Of a DNA stretch of 35,034 nucleotides, positions 25,057 to 35,034 are shown one piece after another (the stretch's first letter is position 1; the number at the start of each line of letters is the position of its first letter). This DNA comes from Syntrophomonadaceae bacterium (GTDB taxonomy: Bacteria > Bacillota > DSM-12270 > Thermacetogeniales > Thermacetogeniaceae): NCBI GenBank assembly GCA_012840385.1, contig DULK01000038.1:1-35034 (forward strand). The letters run 5' to 3'. A model generated the notes under the pieces. It ran no database searches, had not been told where the DNA came from, and saw nothing but the letters and a program-made list of their open reading frames with translations. A program made the position numbers and the translations under genes.

Positions 25057-25878
25057 ATGGTCTATGCAAGCAGGTACTTGAGGCTGACAACCCCCTTTAT
25101 GGAGGGGGTAGATGTACGGGAGGCGCAGCAAAGGCTTTTGGAAAACGGTTTCAACCCGGGTCCGGCCGACGGGGTCTTCGGCCCGCAGACCGATGCGGCG
25201 GTGAGAGCCTTTCAAAGGGCGAACGGGCTTGTGGCCGACGGCATTATCGGCCCCCTGACCTGGAAAAGGCTGAGTGAGGCCGAGGCCGTCCGGGCGTACA
25301 GCATAACGGTGGATGTGGTGCACAGAACTCTTACCCTGTACCGGGATGGAAGTGTTGCGAAAACTTACCCCGTGGCGGTGGGTGCTCCGGACACACCCAC
25401 GCCGCTGGGCGATTGGACGATCACCGAAAAGGTCGAAAACCCGGGTGGCCCTTTTGGGGCGAGGTGGATGAGGCTGAGCATCTCCTGGGGCGCTTACGGG
25501 ATTCACGGTACGGATAACCCGGCTTCCATCGGTCAGGCCGTCAGCCACGGGTGTGTGCGCATGTACAACGAGGATGTCATAGAAGTGTATAACCTGGTCC
25601 AGATCGGTACATCGGTGAGGATAATCGGTGGTGCCTATACCGGGAGACTGCTGTCGGAAGGCACGTCGGGGTATGATGTTGCAGAGGTACAGAGAAAACT
25701 GAGCGTTCTCGGTTATTACACCGGGGCGATAGACGGGATTTTCGGTCCTTTGACAAGGCAGGCGGTGGTGGCCTTCCAGAGGGATCAGGGGCTTGTCGCC
25801 GACGGTATTGTGGGGCCCAGGACCTACGTCCACCTGCGGCAGGCCTACGACATCGCCACCGGAAACACAGAACCGTAA
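25057..25878 (+). CDS. L,D-transpeptidase (YkuD) flanked by two peptidoglycan-binding domains
   Basis: The 273-residue protein has a PG_binding_1 domain (about residues 17-72: VREAQQRLLENGF, DGVFGPQTDAAVRAFQ), a YkuD catalytic domain (80-192) with the motif HGTDNPASIG...SHGCVRM (His150, Cys166), and a second PG_binding_1 domain (206-266). Such enzymes form 3-3 cross-links in peptidoglycan or attach proteins to it. There is no signal peptide in front of the first domain, which is odd for an enzyme that must act outside the membrane; spore-associated relatives exist without classical signals. ATG 25057 follows GGGAGGA. The structured element at 25906-26020 lies just after its stop. Confidence 0.85.
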   Translation: MVYASRYLRLTTPFMEGVDVREAQQRLLENGFNPGPADGVFGPQTDAAVRAFQRANGLVADGIIGPLTWKRLSEAEAVRAYSITVDVVHRTLTLYRDGSVAKTYPVAVGAPDTPTPLGDWTITEKVENPGGPFGARWMRLSISWGAYGIHGTDNPASIGQAVSHGCVRMYNEDVIEVYNLVQIGTSVRIIGGAYTGRLLSEGTSGYDVAEVQRKLSVLGYYTGAIDGIFGPLTRQAVVAFQRDQGLVADGIVGPRTYVHLRQAYDIATGNTEP

Positions 25879-25905: not shown

Positions 25906-26020
25906 CCCCTTCTCTTTGCGGCAAATCCGGGGATCTCCCATGATCCCGATCCCTTCACCTTTGCCTGCAGAGAAAGGGTAGCCCTGCGGTGAGCGGATAG
26001 GTTGAGCGGCCTGCCAGTTC
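25906..26020 (+). ncRNA. candidate structured cis-regulatory RNA, copy A (before vanW)
   Basis: Four paired regions are visible: CCTTCTCT 25908-25915 with AGAGAAAGG 25969-25977 (one bulged A); GGCAAA 25920-25925 with TTTGCC 25960-25965; GGGATC 25930-25935 with GATCCC 25942-25947; GGTAG 25977-25981 with CTGCC 26011-26015. The blocks CACCTTTGCCTGCA, AAGGGTA, CGGTGA (25987-25992) and GGTTGA (26000-26005) recur in order in copy B at 31074-31180, while stem bases differ but still pair. It ends about 220 bases before the vanW start. I do not match it to a known riboswitch. The ligand, the strand and the link to vanW are inference. Confidence 0.55.
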
Positions 26021-26237: not shown

Positions 26238-27077
26238 GTGGAGAGCATGTGCCTAAGGCCGAAGACAAGATCCAGGTTCCGGTTTGTTGTGGGAACCTTA
26301 TATTTCTGCATCAAAAGATACCGGCAGTGGTTCTTTTCCCGCTCCGTTTTCGCCCGCAACTTTGACACGAATCCCGGTAACTATCCATGTACGATTTTCC
26401 ATCACCGAACCCCCCTTTATCGCAGGCTCCGCAACACGGATATGTGGCTGCAGCAGAACAAGGTCATCAATTTAAGGCTGGCGGTGGCAAAGCTGAACTG
26501 CCTCGTGCTTCGTCCCGGTGAAACCTTTTCTTTCTGGCGTCTTCTGGGGAAGCCCACGAAACGGAAAGGCTACGTGGAAGGCATGGTTCTCTATGAAGGC
26601 CGCGTTGTACCTGGTATTGGAGGCGGTCTCTGCCAGCTATCGAACCTTATATACTGGATGACCCTGCATACACCGCTTACGGTAGTGGAACGCTGGCGTC
26701 ATAACTATGACGTTTTCCCAGATGTAGACCGAACACAACCCTTCGGGAGCGGTGCCACCGTTGTTTTTAACTATATCGATCTTCAGATCAGAAACGATAC
26801 CGAACAGACCTTTTATCTGCGCCTCTGGCTGACCGATACCCATCTATGCGGTGAATGGCGCTCAGATCGGCCTATATCATACACATACCAGGTTTACGAA
26901 AAAGAGCATCTTATCACCCATGAACCGTGGGGTTATATGAGGCATAACAGAATCCACCGCCGTATCCTCGATTCCCGGCAGACGATTATTGCCGACGAAA
27001 TGGTGGCCGAAAATCATGCCATCATGATGTATCCTCCCATGCTGAACACGGCAAAAAACGAATCCTCAAGGATATAA
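26238..27077 (+). CDS. VanW family protein
   Basis: The 279-residue protein carries the VanW core: NLRLAVAKLNCLVLRPGETFSFW, PTKRKGYVEGMVL, then GIGGGLCQLSNLIYWMTLH at about residues 127-145, and RWRHNYDVFPDVDRTQPFGSGATVVFNYIDLQIRN. VanW is named for a gene in vanB-type vancomycin clusters, but most members lie outside resistance clusters and their role in the envelope is unknown. There is no obvious signal peptide. GTG 26238 follows a G-rich box by 8 bases. No VanRS, VanA/B or VanX genes are near. The IS element begins right after its stop codon. Confidence 0.85.
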   Translation: MESMCLRPKTRSRFRFVVGTLYFCIKRYRQWFFSRSVFARNFDTNPGNYPCTIFHHRTPLYRRLRNTDMWLQQNKVINLRLAVAKLNCLVLRPGETFSFWRLLGKPTKRKGYVEGMVLYEGRVVPGIGGGLCQLSNLIYWMTLHTPLTVVERWRHNYDVFPDVDRTQPFGSGATVVFNYIDLQIRNDTEQTFYLRLWLTDTHLCGEWRSDRPISYTYQVYEKEHLITHEPWGYMRHNRIHRRILDSRQTIIADEMVAENHAIMMYPPMLNTAKNESSRI

Positions 27078-29029: not shown

Positions 29030-29512
29030 TTAGAGCAACCCCCATTCAACGATCCATTTGAGGCCGAGGGCGATCCAGTGAGATGTAGTGTGAGCGAAAC
29101 GGAGATTCCAGCGCAAGAAGTTATATGTCTGGTCGTAGATGGTTTGATACGCTAACTCCTCCCACGTAAGCAACCTCTCAAGGAAAACAGCAATCTTACC
29201 TGCGTTGTTTTTGAGCACAGTGAGGTAGCGGCCAGGAATATAATCACGTAGCTCACTGATAACCGTGTCAACGTTATGGCGCAGGTAATAAACCAGCTTA
29301 CGGATGGCCGCCTTGATCGCCGCCGTCTTGACACCCTGAGCTTCTACCCGACCATCTTGCCCTGGCGCTGGCTGGACGCTAATTCCTTTTCCAGCAGGAA
29401 CTACGATATTATTGTTTGCTTCAGCAGCAAGCGCACTCATGCCTGGTAACAGCATGTTTACTAATAGGACGAGCACGAGCAAAAGGCTCAATTTTTTCTT
29501 AACCGATCTCAT
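29030..29512 (-). CDS. exported protein of unknown function
   Basis: This 160-residue protein has a clear signal peptide: basic start MRSVKKK, hydrophobic core LLLVLVLLVNMLL, and a cleavage site near ALAAEA (residue 31). The mature part is helical (AAIKAAIRKLVYYLRHNVDTVISELRDYI; LTWEELAYQTIYDQTYNFL) with many aromatic residues near the end. No cysteines or catalytic motif are seen. It is the first gene of a two-gene unit. A decayed partial copy lies 300 bases downstream, so the gene has been duplicated. Function unknown; a small secreted toxin-like or signalling protein is a speculation. Confidence 0.6.
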   Translation of the reverse strand: MRSVKKKLSLLLVLVLLVNMLLPGMSALAAEANNNIVVPAGKGISVQPAPGQDGRVEAQGVKTAAIKAAIRKLVYYLRHNVDTVISELRDYIPGRYLTVLKNNAGKIAVFLERLLTWEELAYQTIYDQTYNFLRWNLRFAHTTSHWIALGLKWIVEWGLL

Positions 29513-29826
29513 CTGAATACCTCCCGAATATTTTTAAGTTGCCTGCCAAGTTACTATCATTAATGGGGATCTTATTATTAAGGGGGATATCGGGATTGAA
29601 AAAGTATAATTCTTCGCCTCCTTGCCTGCATTCCGGCACGCGCTTATTCAAACAGCGCGTCAGATACACCGCGCTTCCTTTGTTCTCCGAAATCCTTCCA
29701 GCTTCGACTTCCTTTACTGATTTCTTTGATCGCTATGGCCACAAGTAGTGATACCGCCGCCGACGAGATTGACGGTTAAATGAAAGAAAGAGACAACCGC
29801 TATAATTTCTGGTTTTGTACGTTACT
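29513..29826. other. intergenic stretch
   Basis: No gene is supported. An inverted repeat ACGCGC/GCGCGT lies at about 29638-29662. The area before 29560 should hold the promoter of the exported-protein gene on the minus strand, but I find no good -35/-10 pair. The block 29640-29745 is more GC-rich than its surroundings and may be a gene remnant. Confidence 0.3.
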
Positions 29827-30129
29827 TTAATGGAAGGCATATTCTGAAACAAATATTAAAAAAATTGAAAAAAAGAATAATACATAAAATAGGTGGGCAA
29901 TCGAGGGAACTTTTTTCCTAAGCAGAAGTCCAGAAGCTAATAACAGTATTGAGTTTATAATCGGGTATGGAGTAAATTCAATATTCGAAACTACTAACAA
30001 GAATAATCCCGCACCGCATGTAATCAATAATACGTGAGCTAACAACTTAAATCTATTTTTTACTAAATATCCTACTATACCTAGTAGAATAAAAACTACA
30101 ACGTATGCAATTGGATAAGGCGCTACCAT
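29827..30129 (-). CDS. small multi-pass membrane protein of unknown function
   Basis: About 100 residues with three to four hydrophobic helices (PIAYVVVFILLGIVGYLV, LLAHVLLITCGAGLFLLVV, PIINSILLLASGLLL, LFYVLFFFSIFLIFV). I do not recognise it. ATG 30129 is preferred because GAGGG lies 8 bases before it; an ATG at 30144 directly after the stop of the upstream gene is also possible. It is in one unit with the exported beta-rich protein before it and could serve in its export or immunity, by position only. The DNA is markedly AT-rich. Confidence 0.5.
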   Translation of the reverse strand: MVAPYPIAYVVVFILLGIVGYLVKNRFKLLAHVLLITCGAGLFLLVVSNIEFTPYPIINSILLLASGLLLRKKVPSIAHLFYVLFFFSIFLIFVSEYAFH

Positions 30130-30144
30130 AAACCACACCCTCAT

Positions 30145-30951
30145 TTAATTCCAACGCAGTTCTATTCCTGTATATGTTATTCCATTACCACCAGGTGCCG
30201 GTGCCCATTGACCCCAGATATCACCGTCACAAAATGCTGCGCTTGCCTGACAGGTAGAAAGACTGACAGAACAAGAAGACGCCACACCTATTCTTAATGC
30301 ATATCTATGTCCAGCTTGTAATGTAACTGTCAATGGCGCATTAATTGAACCTTGATAATTAAGCTGGGATCCTGTACGAGTCCTCTCAAATACAGTATTA
30401 CCACCAATATCAGAGCTTGTATTAAGATCTTCGACTGAAACTCTTACCCTAGCTGATGCTTCACCATTACTATTTGTTGTTACAAGTGAACCTTTATAAC
30501 TCCCTTTAAAAGTTATTGTAGCACTTCTTGAACCGCTACCAGAAATGTAAATTTCGTTACCTATCCAAGCCCAACTACCAGCATTCCCTTGAATAAAACC
30601 AAGATACGTTCCAGCATCTGCCCAACCGGGCTCATTTGCAAATCCGAATCCCTCACCATAAGTACCATAACCGCTTCCCCAGTAATTTGAATTGCCGGCA
30701 TCTGCCCATGTGAAAGTTTTATTGGTTCCTATGTTAATTGTTGTACTATTTGGACTAATTTTTTCAACTCGAGTTCGAGAATCTTTGAAGAGGGATACAC
30801 CTGCTCTATTCATTTGTTCATCTAGTTGATCCAACACAGTTCGCGAATCCAAAACCTTACTATTTGCTTGTGCCGATGCTGGAATAGCATAGGTTAACAA
30901 CAATACCACGGTAAAGCTCAAGATACTTAATTTTTTTAAAATTACTTTCAT
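30145..30951 (-). CDS. exported beta-rich protein of unknown function
   Basis: A 268-residue protein with a signal peptide (MKVILKKLSILSFTVVLLLTYAIPASAQA, cleavage after about residue 28). The mature part is rich in Gly, Ser, Thr and Asn, with repeated short strands, suggesting a beta-sandwich or jelly-roll. It contains three cysteines close together (SSCSVSLSTCQASAAFCDGD), perhaps one disulfide plus a free cysteine. ATG 30951 has GGAGGGTTT upstream; the frame is open to 30996. It is divergent from an ECF sigma gene 460 bases away, with the structured element between them. Confidence 0.65.
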   Translation of the reverse strand: MKVILKKLSILSFTVVLLLTYAIPASAQANSKVLDSRTVLDQLDEQMNRAGVSLFKDSRTRVEKISPNSTTINIGTNKTFTWADAGNSNYWGSGYGTYGEGFGFANEPGWADAGTYLGFIQGNAGSWAWIGNEIYISGSGSRSATITFKGSYKGSLVTTNSNGEASARVRVSVEDLNTSSDIGGNTVFERTRTGSQLNYQGSINAPLTVTLQAGHRYALRIGVASSCSVSLSTCQASAAFCDGDIWGQWAPAPGGNGITYTGIELRWN

Positions 30952-31410
30952 TTGAATAAACCCTCCTCGTTGAGATTGCTTACGTAACATATTCATAGAA
31001 TTTCATAGAATTGTCCAGGGGTCTTCCCTGGCTAAATCAAAAGAGAATCAAGATATAGCATTCCTCCTCTCGGCCTTCCTTTACAAAGGGCAAATTTCAG
31101 GCTTAAAAAATGCTTGCACCTTTGCCTGCAAAGGAAGGGTACTCGCCCCCGGTGAATGATTGGTTGAACGGTCTACCGATCCACCAGAGGCTATTTTTAC
31201 GTTCCAGCAATTGAACGGCAGAATAATTCATCTCTCATATATATAGACAATTTAGAAGGCCATTTTACTGCACGCAGTAGAAAAAATTTTTAACGGAGAT
31301 GAAAGATGGTAAATACGGAAGGAATTAGCACGTATCTATAGAATATTTGATCAATTCGAGCTTGAGTCCCATGTCCTCATCGCAAGTTGATGATAAAGAA
31401 GGGTTAAACA
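30952..31410. other. divergent regulatory region between exported protein and ECF sigma genes
   Basis: This 459-base region has a 6-bp hairpin CCAGGG-GTCTT-CCCTGG (31015-31031), a tandem TTCATAGAAT repeat (about 30993-31012), the structured element copy B (31074-31180) and an AT-rich stretch before the sigma gene. It must carry promoters in both directions; no ECF-type -35 (GGAAC) at proper spacing is clear. Confidence 0.45.
31074..31180 (+). ncRNA. candidate structured cis-regulatory RNA, copy B (before an ECF sigma gene)
   Basis: Paired regions match copy A in order: CCTTCCTTT 31074-31082 with AAAGGAAGG 31130-31138 (perfect 9 bp); GGCAAA 31089-31094 with TTTGCC 31121-31126; CAGGC 31098-31102 with GCTTG 31112-31116; GGTA 31138-31141 with TACC 31174-31177; CCG 31149-31151 with CGG 31169-31171. 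Conserved blocks CACCTTTGCCTGCA (31117-31130), AAGGGTA, CGGTGA (31150-31155) and GGTTGA (31162-31167) recur. The inner hairpin has a wholly different sequence from copy A yet is still paired, which supports RNA structure. It ends 230 bases before the sigma start. Family unknown. Confidence 0.55.
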
Positions 31411-31929
31411 ATGGCAAATTTAGATCAGAGAAAGGTTTACGAGGAGTACTACATGAAGATATATACATTAGCTTATTACATAACAAGAGATGAAGAGATG
31501 TCCAAGGACATAACCCAGGACACCTTTTTCACTGCATTCAAAAAAATCCACCAATTAAAATCAGAAGAAAAGATTGAATCGTGGTTAATCTCCATTGCCA
31601 CCAACCTTTCTCGGAACGCCCTGAAAAAAAGAGAATATCGATTGAGCGAGTATCAGCCGGAATTAAAGGAAAGAGGTAACCCCTACGATCAAGTGGAATT
31701 AAAAATGGCCGTAACCGATGCTCTCGATTCACTATCTCCCGCGTATAAAGAGACCATCCTGCTTTACTATTATTATGGGTTTTCGATAAATGAAATTTCA
31801 CAAATACTTGATGTGAATCAAAAAACCGTAAGCTCTCGTCTCAGTCGTGCCCGCCGGTTGATCAGAGAAAAAATCGGGCTGGAACAAAAAGGGGAAGGAG
31901 GAACGAGGGTTGTCAGATCCCTGCCTTGA
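31411..31929 (+). CDS. ECF RNA polymerase sigma factor
   Basis: The 172-residue protein has region 2 (YMKIYTLAYYITRDEEMSKDITQDTFFTAFKKIHQL, then IESWLISIATNLSRN) and region 4 (LSPAYKETILLYYYYGFSINEISQILDVNQKTVSSRLSRARRLIREKI). It belongs to the SigW/SigV-like ECF type. GAAGGG lies 8 bases before ATG 31411. The anti-sigma start overlaps its 3' end by 20 bases. The likely regulon includes its own operon and perhaps the divergent exported protein; this is inferred. Confidence 0.9.
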   Translation: MANLDQRKVYEEYYMKIYTLAYYITRDEEMSKDITQDTFFTAFKKIHQLKSEEKIESWLISIATNLSRNALKKREYRLSEYQPELKERGNPYDQVELKMAVTDALDSLSPAYKETILLYYYYGFSINEISQILDVNQKTVSSRLSRARRLIREKIGLEQKGEGGTRVVRSLP

Positions 31930-32671
31930 TAAACTTATAAAGGAAGCCGTTACAGAACAGATAAAATCTTTCCCGGTACCCGACATGGACGAGGAGTGGG
32001 AATTATTACAAAAGAGGATTTATACAGAAAAGAAAAGAGAAGCCTGGATAAAAAGAGCAGCAATAGCTGCGGCTGTGTTTCTTGGTTTGACCGGGATTCT
32101 AGCAGGGGTGTATCCGGTGCAGGCGGGGAATCTCAAAAATGCTGTAATCCGTCTGATCGACAAAAGAATCCTCGGTCCGATGCACAACCTGGTCATTAAT
32201 ACCGGTGCAAGCGATCGTGGTGACGTACCGCCGGACACGGTGAATATACCAAAACCCCTGAGGACCTCCTCCCTGGAAAAGGCGGTCGAATTTGCCGGAA
32301 GACCTTTCTGGATCCCGGCGGAAACACCGGAGGGATTGGAACTGGATGAAATAGAAGTTACAAAGGAGGAGGGGGGAGTTTTAAGCGTAAGGCTATTATA
32401 CAGGCACAACGAAAAGTATTATTCGATAATGGAGACTTTAATTGAAAAAAGAGGGAGCAAAGGCATTCTTTACGATACCGACGACTCGGAAGTTTCCAAG
32501 ATAAAAATCGGACAGAGTGATGCGGTGCTGATTATCAACAACAAGCACGGTACCTACAACCTGGACTGGTATCTGGGAGACTGGAGTTTCAGCGCTTTCA
32601 GTAATTTGGGTGAAAAAGAAATAATAACGATTTCCTCCAGTCTGATACCCACAAATGCGGTCGGAAAATAA
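31910..32671 (+). CDS. transmembrane anti-sigma factor, DUF4367-type outer domain
   Basis: The 253-residue protein begins with a cytoplasmic helical part (residues 1-45, LDKLIKEAVTEQIKSF...EEWELLQKRIY), a transmembrane helix (about 50-70, AAIAAAVFLGLTGILAGVYPVQA) and an outer domain with the DUF4367 pattern (FWIPAETPEGLELDEIEV; GQSDAVLII). It lacks the H-C-C zinc motif. It should bind and restrain the sigma factor that precedes it. TTG 31910 is preceded by GGAGG and lies within the sigma gene. Confidence 0.75.
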   Translation: MSDPCLDKLIKEAVTEQIKSFPVPDMDEEWELLQKRIYTEKKREAWIKRAAIAAAVFLGLTGILAGVYPVQAGNLKNAVIRLIDKRILGPMHNLVINTGASDRGDVPPDTVNIPKPLRTSSLEKAVEFAGRPFWIPAETPEGLELDEIEVTKEEGGVLSVRLLYRHNEKYYSIMETLIEKRGSKGILYDTDDSEVSKIKIGQSDAVLIINNKHGTYNLDWYLGDWSFSAFSNLGEKEIITISSSLIPTNAVGK

Positions 32672-32690
32672 ACGACAGGTGATAAGACTT

Positions 32691-33096
32691 TTAAAAATAA
32701 AGCGAGGCGGAGGTTGAATAGCCTGATTCGGTATGGCTTCCTTCTATGGCGGAGTGCTTTGCGCGAACCCTGTAATAATATCCCTTGGTAACCGACGTGG
32801 TCACCTGACCGGTCGCTTCGGAACTGTTCGTTTCGGTAAATTCCCAGCTTTTGACCGCTGTCCAGTTGCTTCCGTTCCATCTTTCTAAAGTTAGTATCAC
32901 TTTCACGACATCCACGGGGGTATAAGTATATGTTACACCCGTAAGGTATGCACGGCCGTCGGTTGTGGCGCTGATGCTGCAATTTCCGTAAGTGATATAT
33001 TGATAGGTTTGTGGTTTAACATAGACGGCTTTATTTGTCGGCGGTGGTGCTGATGCAAAGACCGGAGACGCATAAGCCAGCACCATAATCACACTC
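32691..33096 (-). pseudogene. exported beta-sandwich protein, 5' end deleted
   Basis: The frame reads VSVIMVLAYASPVFASA, the end of a signal peptide, then a mature domain of about 115 residues (NKAVYVKPQTYQYI, VVKVILTLERWNGSNWTAVKSW, KGYYYRVRAKHSA) similar to small secreted beta-sandwich proteins of the DUF6147 type. The basic N-region and start codon are missing; upstream the frame runs into the antisense of the sigma gene (MPLARCL...). The join is at about 33096-33101. An internal ATG exists but would leave no proper signal peptide, so export is unlikely. Confidence 0.65.
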
Positions 33097-33100
33097 ACAC

Positions 33101-33562
33101 TATTATCTAACCAGAGACCAGCACGCTGCTGAAGACATCGTGCAAGAGGCATTTGCTAAAGCAATATGCGCCTTTCATAAATTAAAAGATCCCAATAAAT
33201 TCAAACCATGGCTTACCCGGATTGCTTTAAACACAGGGAAATCATGGGTAGAGAGAAATAGTCATGTATCCTATTTGGCTGAAATTGAAGTTGCGGCCAG
33301 TAGCTTTGACTTGCCGTTGGAAGAGGCAATAAACGCTGAGACCAGGAAGGTAGTCATAGATGCCATCAGCTACCTCTCCCCGCAGGAACAAAAAGTAGTT
33401 GTTCTTCGATTTTATCTCGATCTTTTGGAAAAGGATATTGCAAATATCCTGGGTATTAGTGAAGGTACAGTTAAATCTGTTCTTCACCGGTCAAAACAAA
33501 AACTGGGCCGACATTTAAGTATGTGGTACGAAAAGGAGCGTGATGGCCGTGGAAGAAGATAA
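33101..33562 (+). pseudogene. ECF sigma factor, 5' end deleted
   Basis: From 33101 the frame reads YYLTRDQHAAEDIVQEAFAK, the middle of sigma region 2, then the rest of region 2 (FKPWLTRIALNTGKSW) and a complete region 4 (LSPQEQKVVVLRFYLDLLEKDIANILGISEGTVKSVLHRSKQKL). The first 25-40 residues and the start are gone: a stop codon lies four codons before. A GTG at 33140 could start a shorter protein lacking the front of region 2, but it has no good ribosome binding site. The anti-sigma gene follows with an overlap of about 20 bases. Confidence 0.75.
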
Positions 33563-34256
33563 TCTGGAACAGTTCTTGCGCACCGCCTTACAGTCCAATG
33601 AGATTACTATTCAAACACCCATGAGCGGGGTTGAAAACAAGATATTTGAAAAGGTCGCCAAGTACCGGGAACAGGAGCACCGAAAAAAACGACGATTCTA
33701 TCAAATGGCAGCCGGGATTATCCTGTTGCTAGGGATGATCGGCAGTATGCTTTTTCCTCAACCGGTCGTTGCGTTGAAAAACAAGCTGCTTCATCTTTTA
33801 TCCTGGTCTGAGCGAGAAATCAAGATTAATTTGCTCAGCCTAACAGCCGGCAACCATGTAGATGACCGCTTGGCCAACGAAATATCCAAATTACAGCCCG
33901 AGGTTCCCTATAAGATTAAAGTTCCGCAATACATTCCCACCGGAATGGCCTTCAAACAGGTTGCGATCAATAAAAAAGGCTCAGTAGTCCGACTGGTTAT
34001 GGAGTACGAGCAAGCAGATAAACGCTTGCGAATTACCCAGGAAAACATACCTGGTGAAACAAACTATTCTTTAAGGGTCAACACCGCATCTGGGCAAATT
34101 GAACAAATTAAGATCAATAATGCGGAGGGGCATCTGATTAAATACAGCAATGGCATGAATATGATTGTATGGGATACTGACGAGAGTATTAAGTTTATTG
34201 TGGACGGGAATCTTACCGCTGATGAATTACTGTTAATTGCTAGGTGCTTGGAATAA
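33543..34256 (+). CDS. transmembrane anti-sigma factor, DUF4367-type
   Basis: About 237 residues: a cytoplasmic helical segment (DNLEQFLRTALQSNEITI...KIFEKVAKYREQEHRKK), one membrane helix (residues 55-74, MAAGIILLLGMIGSMLFPQPVV) and an outer domain matching DUF4367 (VPQYIPTGMAFKQVAI, LVMEYEQADKRLRITQE, IIVWDTD-like strands). ATG 33543 lies 4 bases after AAGGAG; GTG 33549 is a possible start. Its sigma partner has lost its 5' end, so the gene may be silent or orphaned. Confidence 0.7.
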   Translation: MAVEEDNLEQFLRTALQSNEITIQTPMSGVENKIFEKVAKYREQEHRKKRRFYQMAAGIILLLGMIGSMLFPQPVVALKNKLLHLLSWSEREIKINLLSLTAGNHVDDRLANEISKLQPEVPYKIKVPQYIPTGMAFKQVAINKKGSVVRLVMEYEQADKRLRITQENIPGETNYSLRVNTASGQIEQIKINNAEGHLIKYSNGMNMIVWDTDESIKFIVDGNLTADELLLIARCLE

Positions 34257-34261
34257 ATATG

Positions 34262-35034
34262 TAGGGTTTGCTGAATAACCAAAAGATCCAGACACTACAA
34301 GGGTTTAGAGGTATTAAAATCGAATTATTGTCCAAGGAAAAAGCGTAAAAACCGGCAAAAAGCTTGCACAGGAGGCAGAAATGTACCGACGTCCCACTGG
34401 TCAGATGGTTCTGGAAGACGTCGTACTTCCCTTTGAAGGAAAACTCGATGCCAATAACCGTTGGGTCAAACTGGCTCAGATAATACCCTGGTCGGACATC
34501 GAAAAGGATTATGCCGACCTATTCCCATCCAATACCGGAACAGTAGCCAAACCCTTACGCATGGCCCTGGGTGCCCTGATCATCAAAGAAAGGTGCGGAT
34601 TCACGGACCGGGAAACAGTGGAACAAATCACCGAAAACCCGTATCTGCAATACTTCATCGGGCTGGAAAAGTATCAGATAGAGCCTCCCTTTGACGCCTC
34701 ACTAATATGGTTTACTTCCGCAAACGCCTGGATCAGAACATCATGAACAAAATAAACGAGCTGATCTGTCAAGGGGAGCAAAACAAAAAGACAAAAGATC
34801 CGGGTGACCCCGGGGAACCCCCGCATACAGGTGGTGTTCTATCCAAACAGGACTCTAAATCGGATGAGCCGGCTAATAAAGGCAAACTGTTGCTTGATGC
34901 CACCTGTGCCCCGGCCGATATCCGCTACCCAAGATCTGTCCCTGCTGAATGAAGCCCGGGAGAAAACCGAAGAGATGATCGACACCTTATATCATACCGG
35001 TCTGGGCCTGGCAAGGAAGCCTCGCACCTATCGC
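34262..35034 (+). mobile_element. IS5/IS1182-type insertion sequence, left part, cut by window end
   Basis: Just after the anti-sigma gene the sequence AGGGTTTGCTGAATAACC has the look of the terminal inverted repeat of IS5/IS1182-type elements. A transposase frame follows at 34381. The right end lies beyond the window, so the boundary and target duplication cannot be checked. Confidence 0.65.
34381..35034 (+). pseudogene. DDE transposase of the IS5/IS1182 group, frameshifted and partial
   Basis: The N-terminal InsH-type domain is intact (LDANNRWVKLAQIIPWSDIE, SNTGTVAKPLRMALGALIIKER, DRETVEQITENPYLQYFIGL). At about 34709 two extra bases (AT in CTAATATGG) shift the frame; the true continuation VYFRKRLDQNIMNKINELI is in the next frame. 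At about 34931 a second shift restores the first frame, where LSLLNEAREKTEEMIDTLYHTGL follows to the window end. The conserved LLLDATCAPADIRYP block holds the first catalytic aspartate. With two shifts the gene is inactive unless these are sequencing errors. Confidence 0.75.

Follow-up and report, generated by a model that had tools for sequence, protein, structure and literature searches.

Two genes in the window, that is, the whole stretch of DNA analysed (35034 bases), have lost their 5′ ends at one point and are present in this form in the assembly. On the minus strand, a gene for a DUF6147 exported protein (32691-33100) lacks its start along with the initial portion of its signal peptide; on the plus strand, the gene for an ECF sigma factor (sigma 2; 33089-33562) has lost its start as well as region 2.1 and the first portion of region 2.2. 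The homologous stretches of the two genes meet within approximately 33095-33103. The junction is most likely an ordinary deletion scar, a case of regulatory gene decay, and it is rather likely that it was created by a single deletion between neighbouring sigma/anti-sigma modules. A preliminary description of this DNA had likewise proposed one deletion, acting on a divergent exported-protein/sigma pair laid out like the neighbouring locus; a deletion is still the simplest cause, with no intact equivalent of the compact DUF6147/sigma layout found in the genomes examined, but the likeness to the neighbour has been given up.

The window is one whole contig of a 105-contig draft genome (2.70 Mb, 98.8% complete), and from approximately 30 kb onward its composition shifts to low GC (0.39-0.51 for the features measured across 30145-35034 vs 0.56 for 1-29000). 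This low-GC stretch opens with an intact minus-strand gene for an exported protein of 283 aa with a signal peptide (30145-30996), divergent from the intact ECF sigma factor 1 (31411-31929, plus strand), and in the gap between the two, ahead of the exported gene, lies a conserved structured leader RNA (model R1; 31063-31198 on the minus strand). Anti-sigma 1 (DUF4367, PF14285; 31910-32671, plus strand), also intact, is followed by the DUF6147 gene, the junction, sigma 2, and anti-sigma 2. Directly behind the stop of anti-sigma 2, in the place that DUF6147 occupies in the nearest relative of sigma 2, starts an IS5-type transposase remnant (34258-35034, plus strand) with shifted reading frames, inside which the contig ends. 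The remnant carries two frame-shifting differences from both relatives aligned, has relatives of 78-90% in genomes of the same family, and is the sole copy found in its own genome with this query. Given the low GC and these frame-shifting differences, the surroundings (30145-35034) look like decaying mobile DNA.

The plus-strand frame of sigma 2 opens after a TAA at 33086-33088 and reads SHSH-YYLTRDQHAAEDIVQEAF, with homology beginning only at the Y (33101). As described earlier, it begins in the middle of region 2: the Pfam profile Sigma70_r2 (71 positions) is matched from position 14 onward only, and the first usable start is GTG 33140, within region 2. Of the two conserved regions by which ECF sigma factors are recognized, region 4 is whole and region 2 is partial. 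The gene nevertheless lies beside its cognate anti-sigma gene, which overlaps its stop, an adjacency repeated in its nearest relative (L046/L079, from the MAG HGW-Firmicutes-15; 49% over 142 aa). Before the common YYLTRD, this relative has 28 residues vs 21 in sigma 1, and the loss from sigma 2 is estimated against these two. No close relative of sigma 2 was found among the 20 genomes of the order, and phage records gave only weak ECF matches, under 60% identity. The contacts between ECF factors and core polymerase are described as running mainly from sigma region 2.2 to β′ (PMC8103513). Since a product started at GTG 33140 would be without region 2.1 and the start of 2.2, the main polymerase contact, sigma 2 is most likely dead.

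The anti-sigma gene downstream was correctly described as whole. Within the frame 33540-34256 (plus strand), its likely start, ATG 33543, is preceded by AAGGAG, and the gene runs intact to 34256. Its DUF4367 domain scores 62.9 bits (cut-off 22.1) and, as is characteristic of anti-sigma factors of this type, sits behind a membrane segment, seen as an unscored hydrophobic segment in the sequence, and next to an ECF sigma gene. In the anti-sigma tree it groups with L046 at 100/99. A search of the contigs of the genomes with the single protein as query gave no relative of anti-sigma 2, whereas a two-row alignment as query recovered one, that of HGW-Firmicutes-15. Anti-sigma 2 would now be without a promoter of its own unless transcription reads through from module 1 (sigma 1, anti-sigma 1, and DUF6147). 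Such read-through is possible, as no terminator-like site was found in 32500-33700 (0 vs 1.1 expected by chance).

The DUF6147 gene matches its family (PF19644) with an E value of 1.3e-6 and 29.1 bits, above the curated Pfam cut-off of 24, and the fragment is 39% identical to a protein of the same genus (E 2.5e-21). On the minus strand, its homology breaks off within the hydrophobic stretch of the signal peptide, and in relatives an n-region and further hydrophobic residues precede the part retained in the window. The full N-terminal signal peptide and dedicated start that the aligned relatives possess are therefore missing here, the n-region and the first hydrophobic residues being absent. 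The earlier view that both 5′ ends are missing at the join holds for both frames, and the suggested comparison of N-termini bears it out, with 28 residues in the sigma 2 relative and the n-region in the DUF6147 relatives extending beyond what the window retains. What does not hold is that the minus-strand frame ends without a start. It reads on past the junction without a stop as far as the in-frame ATG 33152, giving an ORF of 153 aa that runs antisense to the sigma gene, with the new N-terminus MPLARCLQQRAGLWLDN, then SVSVIMVLAYASPVFASA, which contains two arginines and a hydrophobic part. No ribosome site lies at the usual distance before this ATG, the nearest purine-rich stretch (GAAAGG) being approximately 18 nt upstream. 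No paper on DUF6147 or DUF4367 was found in the literature. As a separate observation, a segment in a same-genus genome (L108:1226-1273, in G001:C98) matches the window DUF6147 gene in its 3′ part over 49 bases (86%) and lies just behind the counterpart of window gene 26238-27077; it is possibly the remnant of a DUF6147 gene.

To which module the DUF6147 gene belongs can be judged from its relatives. The sigma, anti-sigma, and DUF6147 frames were mapped in loci from 61 relatives and from 398 genomes of the phylum, and the layouts were tallied in 40 rows, which include one for the window, two for G096, and three for partial DUF6147 frames, and leave out five further DUF6147 matches without a locus. 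DUF6147 is convergent behind the anti-sigma gene in 16 genomes outside the window, among them both same-genus relatives (G001 and G002) and the genome with the nearest relative of sigma 2; G190 is counted here by hand, since the closer of its sigma-like frames failed to align as ECF type. It is divergent from sigma in only seven genomes, all of other families, and the remaining rows are co-directional or without a module. The sigma/DUF4367/DUF6147 modules therefore occur in several arrangements, and the divergent exported-protein/sigma pair assumed by the preliminary description is not the arrangement seen in the two same-genus relatives. An intact compact layout was found in none of the genomes compared. 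The DUF6147 tree was built without four of the tally rows, namely those of the three partial frames and the second one for G096. In it, the window row lies outside the two clades marked as holding divergent-layout genes and is otherwise unplaced; these clades are mixed, since one of them includes a convergent row as well and two co-directional rows fall in the other. The window gene is convergent with anti-sigma 1 at a spacing of 19 bases, and hence most likely belongs to module 1. We conclude that at the junction the far end of module 1 abuts the beginning of module 2, which comprises sigma 2 and anti-sigma 2. Like the ECF sigma/DUF4367 anti-sigma/DUF6147 modules of the phylum, the window combines the same three families with DUF6147 facing the anti-sigma gene, whereas module 2 is without a start, without a DUF6147 gene of its own, and with an IS5 remnant behind it.

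The neighbouring locus (30145-31929), which had served as the template for a head-to-head ancestor, is not suited to that role, because its 283-aa exported protein is unrelated to DUF6147; the protein matches only itself in phmmer and has no Pfam or NCBIfam match. Its gap to the sigma gene, given earlier as 460 bases, has approximately that length if the exported gene starts at an inner Met (MKVILKK), and is 414 bases if the start is at 30996. A promoter region shared by sigma and DUF6147 genes was not borne out either: no two-block motif common to the upstream regions of sigma and DUF6147 exceeded chance pairing (6 of 17 matched modules vs 93 of 272 mismatched pairings), and the neighbouring gap holds the leader RNA.

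In the proposed event, the ancestor would have carried two neighbouring ECF sigma/anti-sigma modules within low-GC DNA that bears transposons, with sigma 1, anti-sigma 1, and the DUF6147 gene facing them forming module 1, and sigma 2 and anti-sigma 2 forming module 2. If the modules were once adjacent, DUF6147 and sigma 2 would have stood head to head merely by position, and one deletion would then be the simplest event. It would have taken the DNA from the DUF6147 start to the middle of region 2 of sigma 2, removing roughly 12-16 DUF6147 codons, about 21-28 sigma 2 codons, and the intervening space with the promoters, and neither truncated gene would now yield a working protein. The two frames overlap by 66 bases in the window, whereas in all seven genomes with a head-to-head layout they lie 111-298 bases apart. 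An undeleted locus was not found in any genome of the same species or of a close relative. This counts against the proposal, as do the draft state of the assembly, the want of close sigma 2 relatives in the order, and the fact that the minus-strand frame is open and gains an ATG, which need not happen in a purely dead gene.

G005, a genome of the same family assembled as one contig, has a lesion of comparable kind: a second copy of a module (L043:10086-11307, in G005:C1; 99.7% identity) has lost 139 bases of its sigma gene, from before the start to region 2. This makes deletions of sigma starts plausible. As in the window, the sigma start is lost up to region 2 and the anti-sigma gene is whole; unlike in the window, the parent copy is present intact at a distance of 5 kb, and sigma alone is cut, whereas the loss in the window reaches the exported-protein gene too. 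G261 also has a split sigma gene and a whole anti-sigma gene. What the junction illustrates is that a sigma gene can be lost while the anti-sigma gene stays. The idea that decay always strikes sigma first was rejected, as G027 has a split anti-sigma gene with a whole sigma gene, and both are truncated in G132.

An unlikely alternative is that the contig is chimaeric, the assembler having fused, at about 33100, two stretches that are not linked in the genome or that derive from a co-assembled organism. The assembly is a draft in many contigs, this one ends in an IS5 remnant, and sigma 2 is without a close relative in the order, all of which would fit a misjoin. However, the genome contains the 21-mer spanning the junction a single time, even when 2 mismatches are allowed, so that there is no repeat that suggests one. 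GC is similarly low on both sides (0.41-0.48 for sigma 1, anti-sigma 1, and DUF6147; 0.42-0.43 for sigma 2 and anti-sigma 2), the IS5 remnant on the right-hand side has its relatives in genomes of the same family, and the contamination of the genome is 0.09%. Quite improbable, too, is a rearrangement in which an already truncated sigma 2, together with anti-sigma 2 and IS5, was inserted into or translocated beside the DUF6147 gene. The IS5-related sequence, standing where DUF6147 would be expected from the nearest relative, and the scarcity of sigma 2 relatives in the order speak for it; yet neither an IS end nor a target duplication nor a repeat was noticed where the two genes meet, and the rest of the DUF6147 and sigma 2 genes was seen nowhere else, the missing ends being too short for a reliable search. 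That both genes still function, DUF6147 starting at ATG 33152, its new signal peptide being partly antisense, and sigma 2 starting at GTG 33140 or elsewhere, is highly improbable, for although the frames are intact past the junction and the new minus-strand N-terminus has its arginines and hydrophobic part, the ribosome site and the sigma regions noted above are lacking, and no promoter-like site near the junction exceeds chance.

Beside the single deletion, which is the preferred origin of the junction, the neighbouring gap holds an element that would matter more than the junction itself if it is regulatory. When the DNA of 29500-33100 was compared with relatives, 31050-31322 was found to recur in the same genome and in the relatives. 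The core of the leader RNA is 136 nt long (31063-31198, minus strand) and folds with z -3.7 against shuffles, compared with -5.85 for a relative. A covariance model detects it in 9 of 20 genomes of the order, with eight copies in its own genome. In the phylum, 10 of 299 genomes have it, and two other families are represented among these (G103 and G168; G203). Over 33 aligned matches (30 distinct), 86.6% of the cells pair, and 42 cells carry double changes vs 13.6 ± 3.2 in shuffled and 7-14 in slid alignments, in an alignment that is fitted to the structure. On that structure-fitted alignment, base pairs are kept through two-sided changes, the hallmark by which a structured cis-regulatory RNA is judged. 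In a MAFFT alignment of 19 matches, 14 pairs are predicted, of which seven show double changes, all in stem 1, and the second stem is recovered partly.

By a crude rule, 23 of 25 genes that follow the leader RNA have a signal-like, hydrophobic N-terminus, vs 24 of 50 other ORFs from the same loci, a count in which one of 26 matches has no downstream ORF, the other ORFs of the window fall outside the control, and identical or nearly identical loci are counted separately. Rfam 15 (4227 models) gave nothing at gathering in the window for the leader RNA, nothing at E up to 5 in 30980-31420, and no match at the positions of the leader RNA at E up to 1 in 21 loci; the hits obtained were three unrelated RNAs in other loci and one chance match. 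A known riboswitch was accordingly dropped as a candidate, since no Rfam 15 family matches, and no paper on the leader RNA was found. Like the cis-regulatory families of Rfam, this RNA is a conserved structured leader, in this case mostly upstream of exported-protein genes; unlike them, it has no match in Rfam 15. It is probably a cis-regulatory RNA, and possibly a repeat element or a DNA-binding site instead. There is about an even chance that it represents an undescribed cis-regulatory class, possibly a riboswitch, that would control exported-protein genes in at least three families of the phylum and, in some genomes, lie beside ECF sigma/anti-sigma/DUF6147 modules. Should it prove to be a regulatory RNA, direct tests could address what ligand or signal it responds to and why it stands before so many exported proteins.

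Elsewhere in the window, a partial match to the leader RNA (78% over 63 bases) lies at 25956-26015, between the genes at 25057-25878 and 26238-27077, and is also found in G001 and G002. In four loci (L118, L113, L128, and L133), spread over three genomes within the family and one from a different family, the genes associated with the RNA encode closely similar small hydrophobic proteins of 135-146 aa that share a TC..CG cysteine motif.
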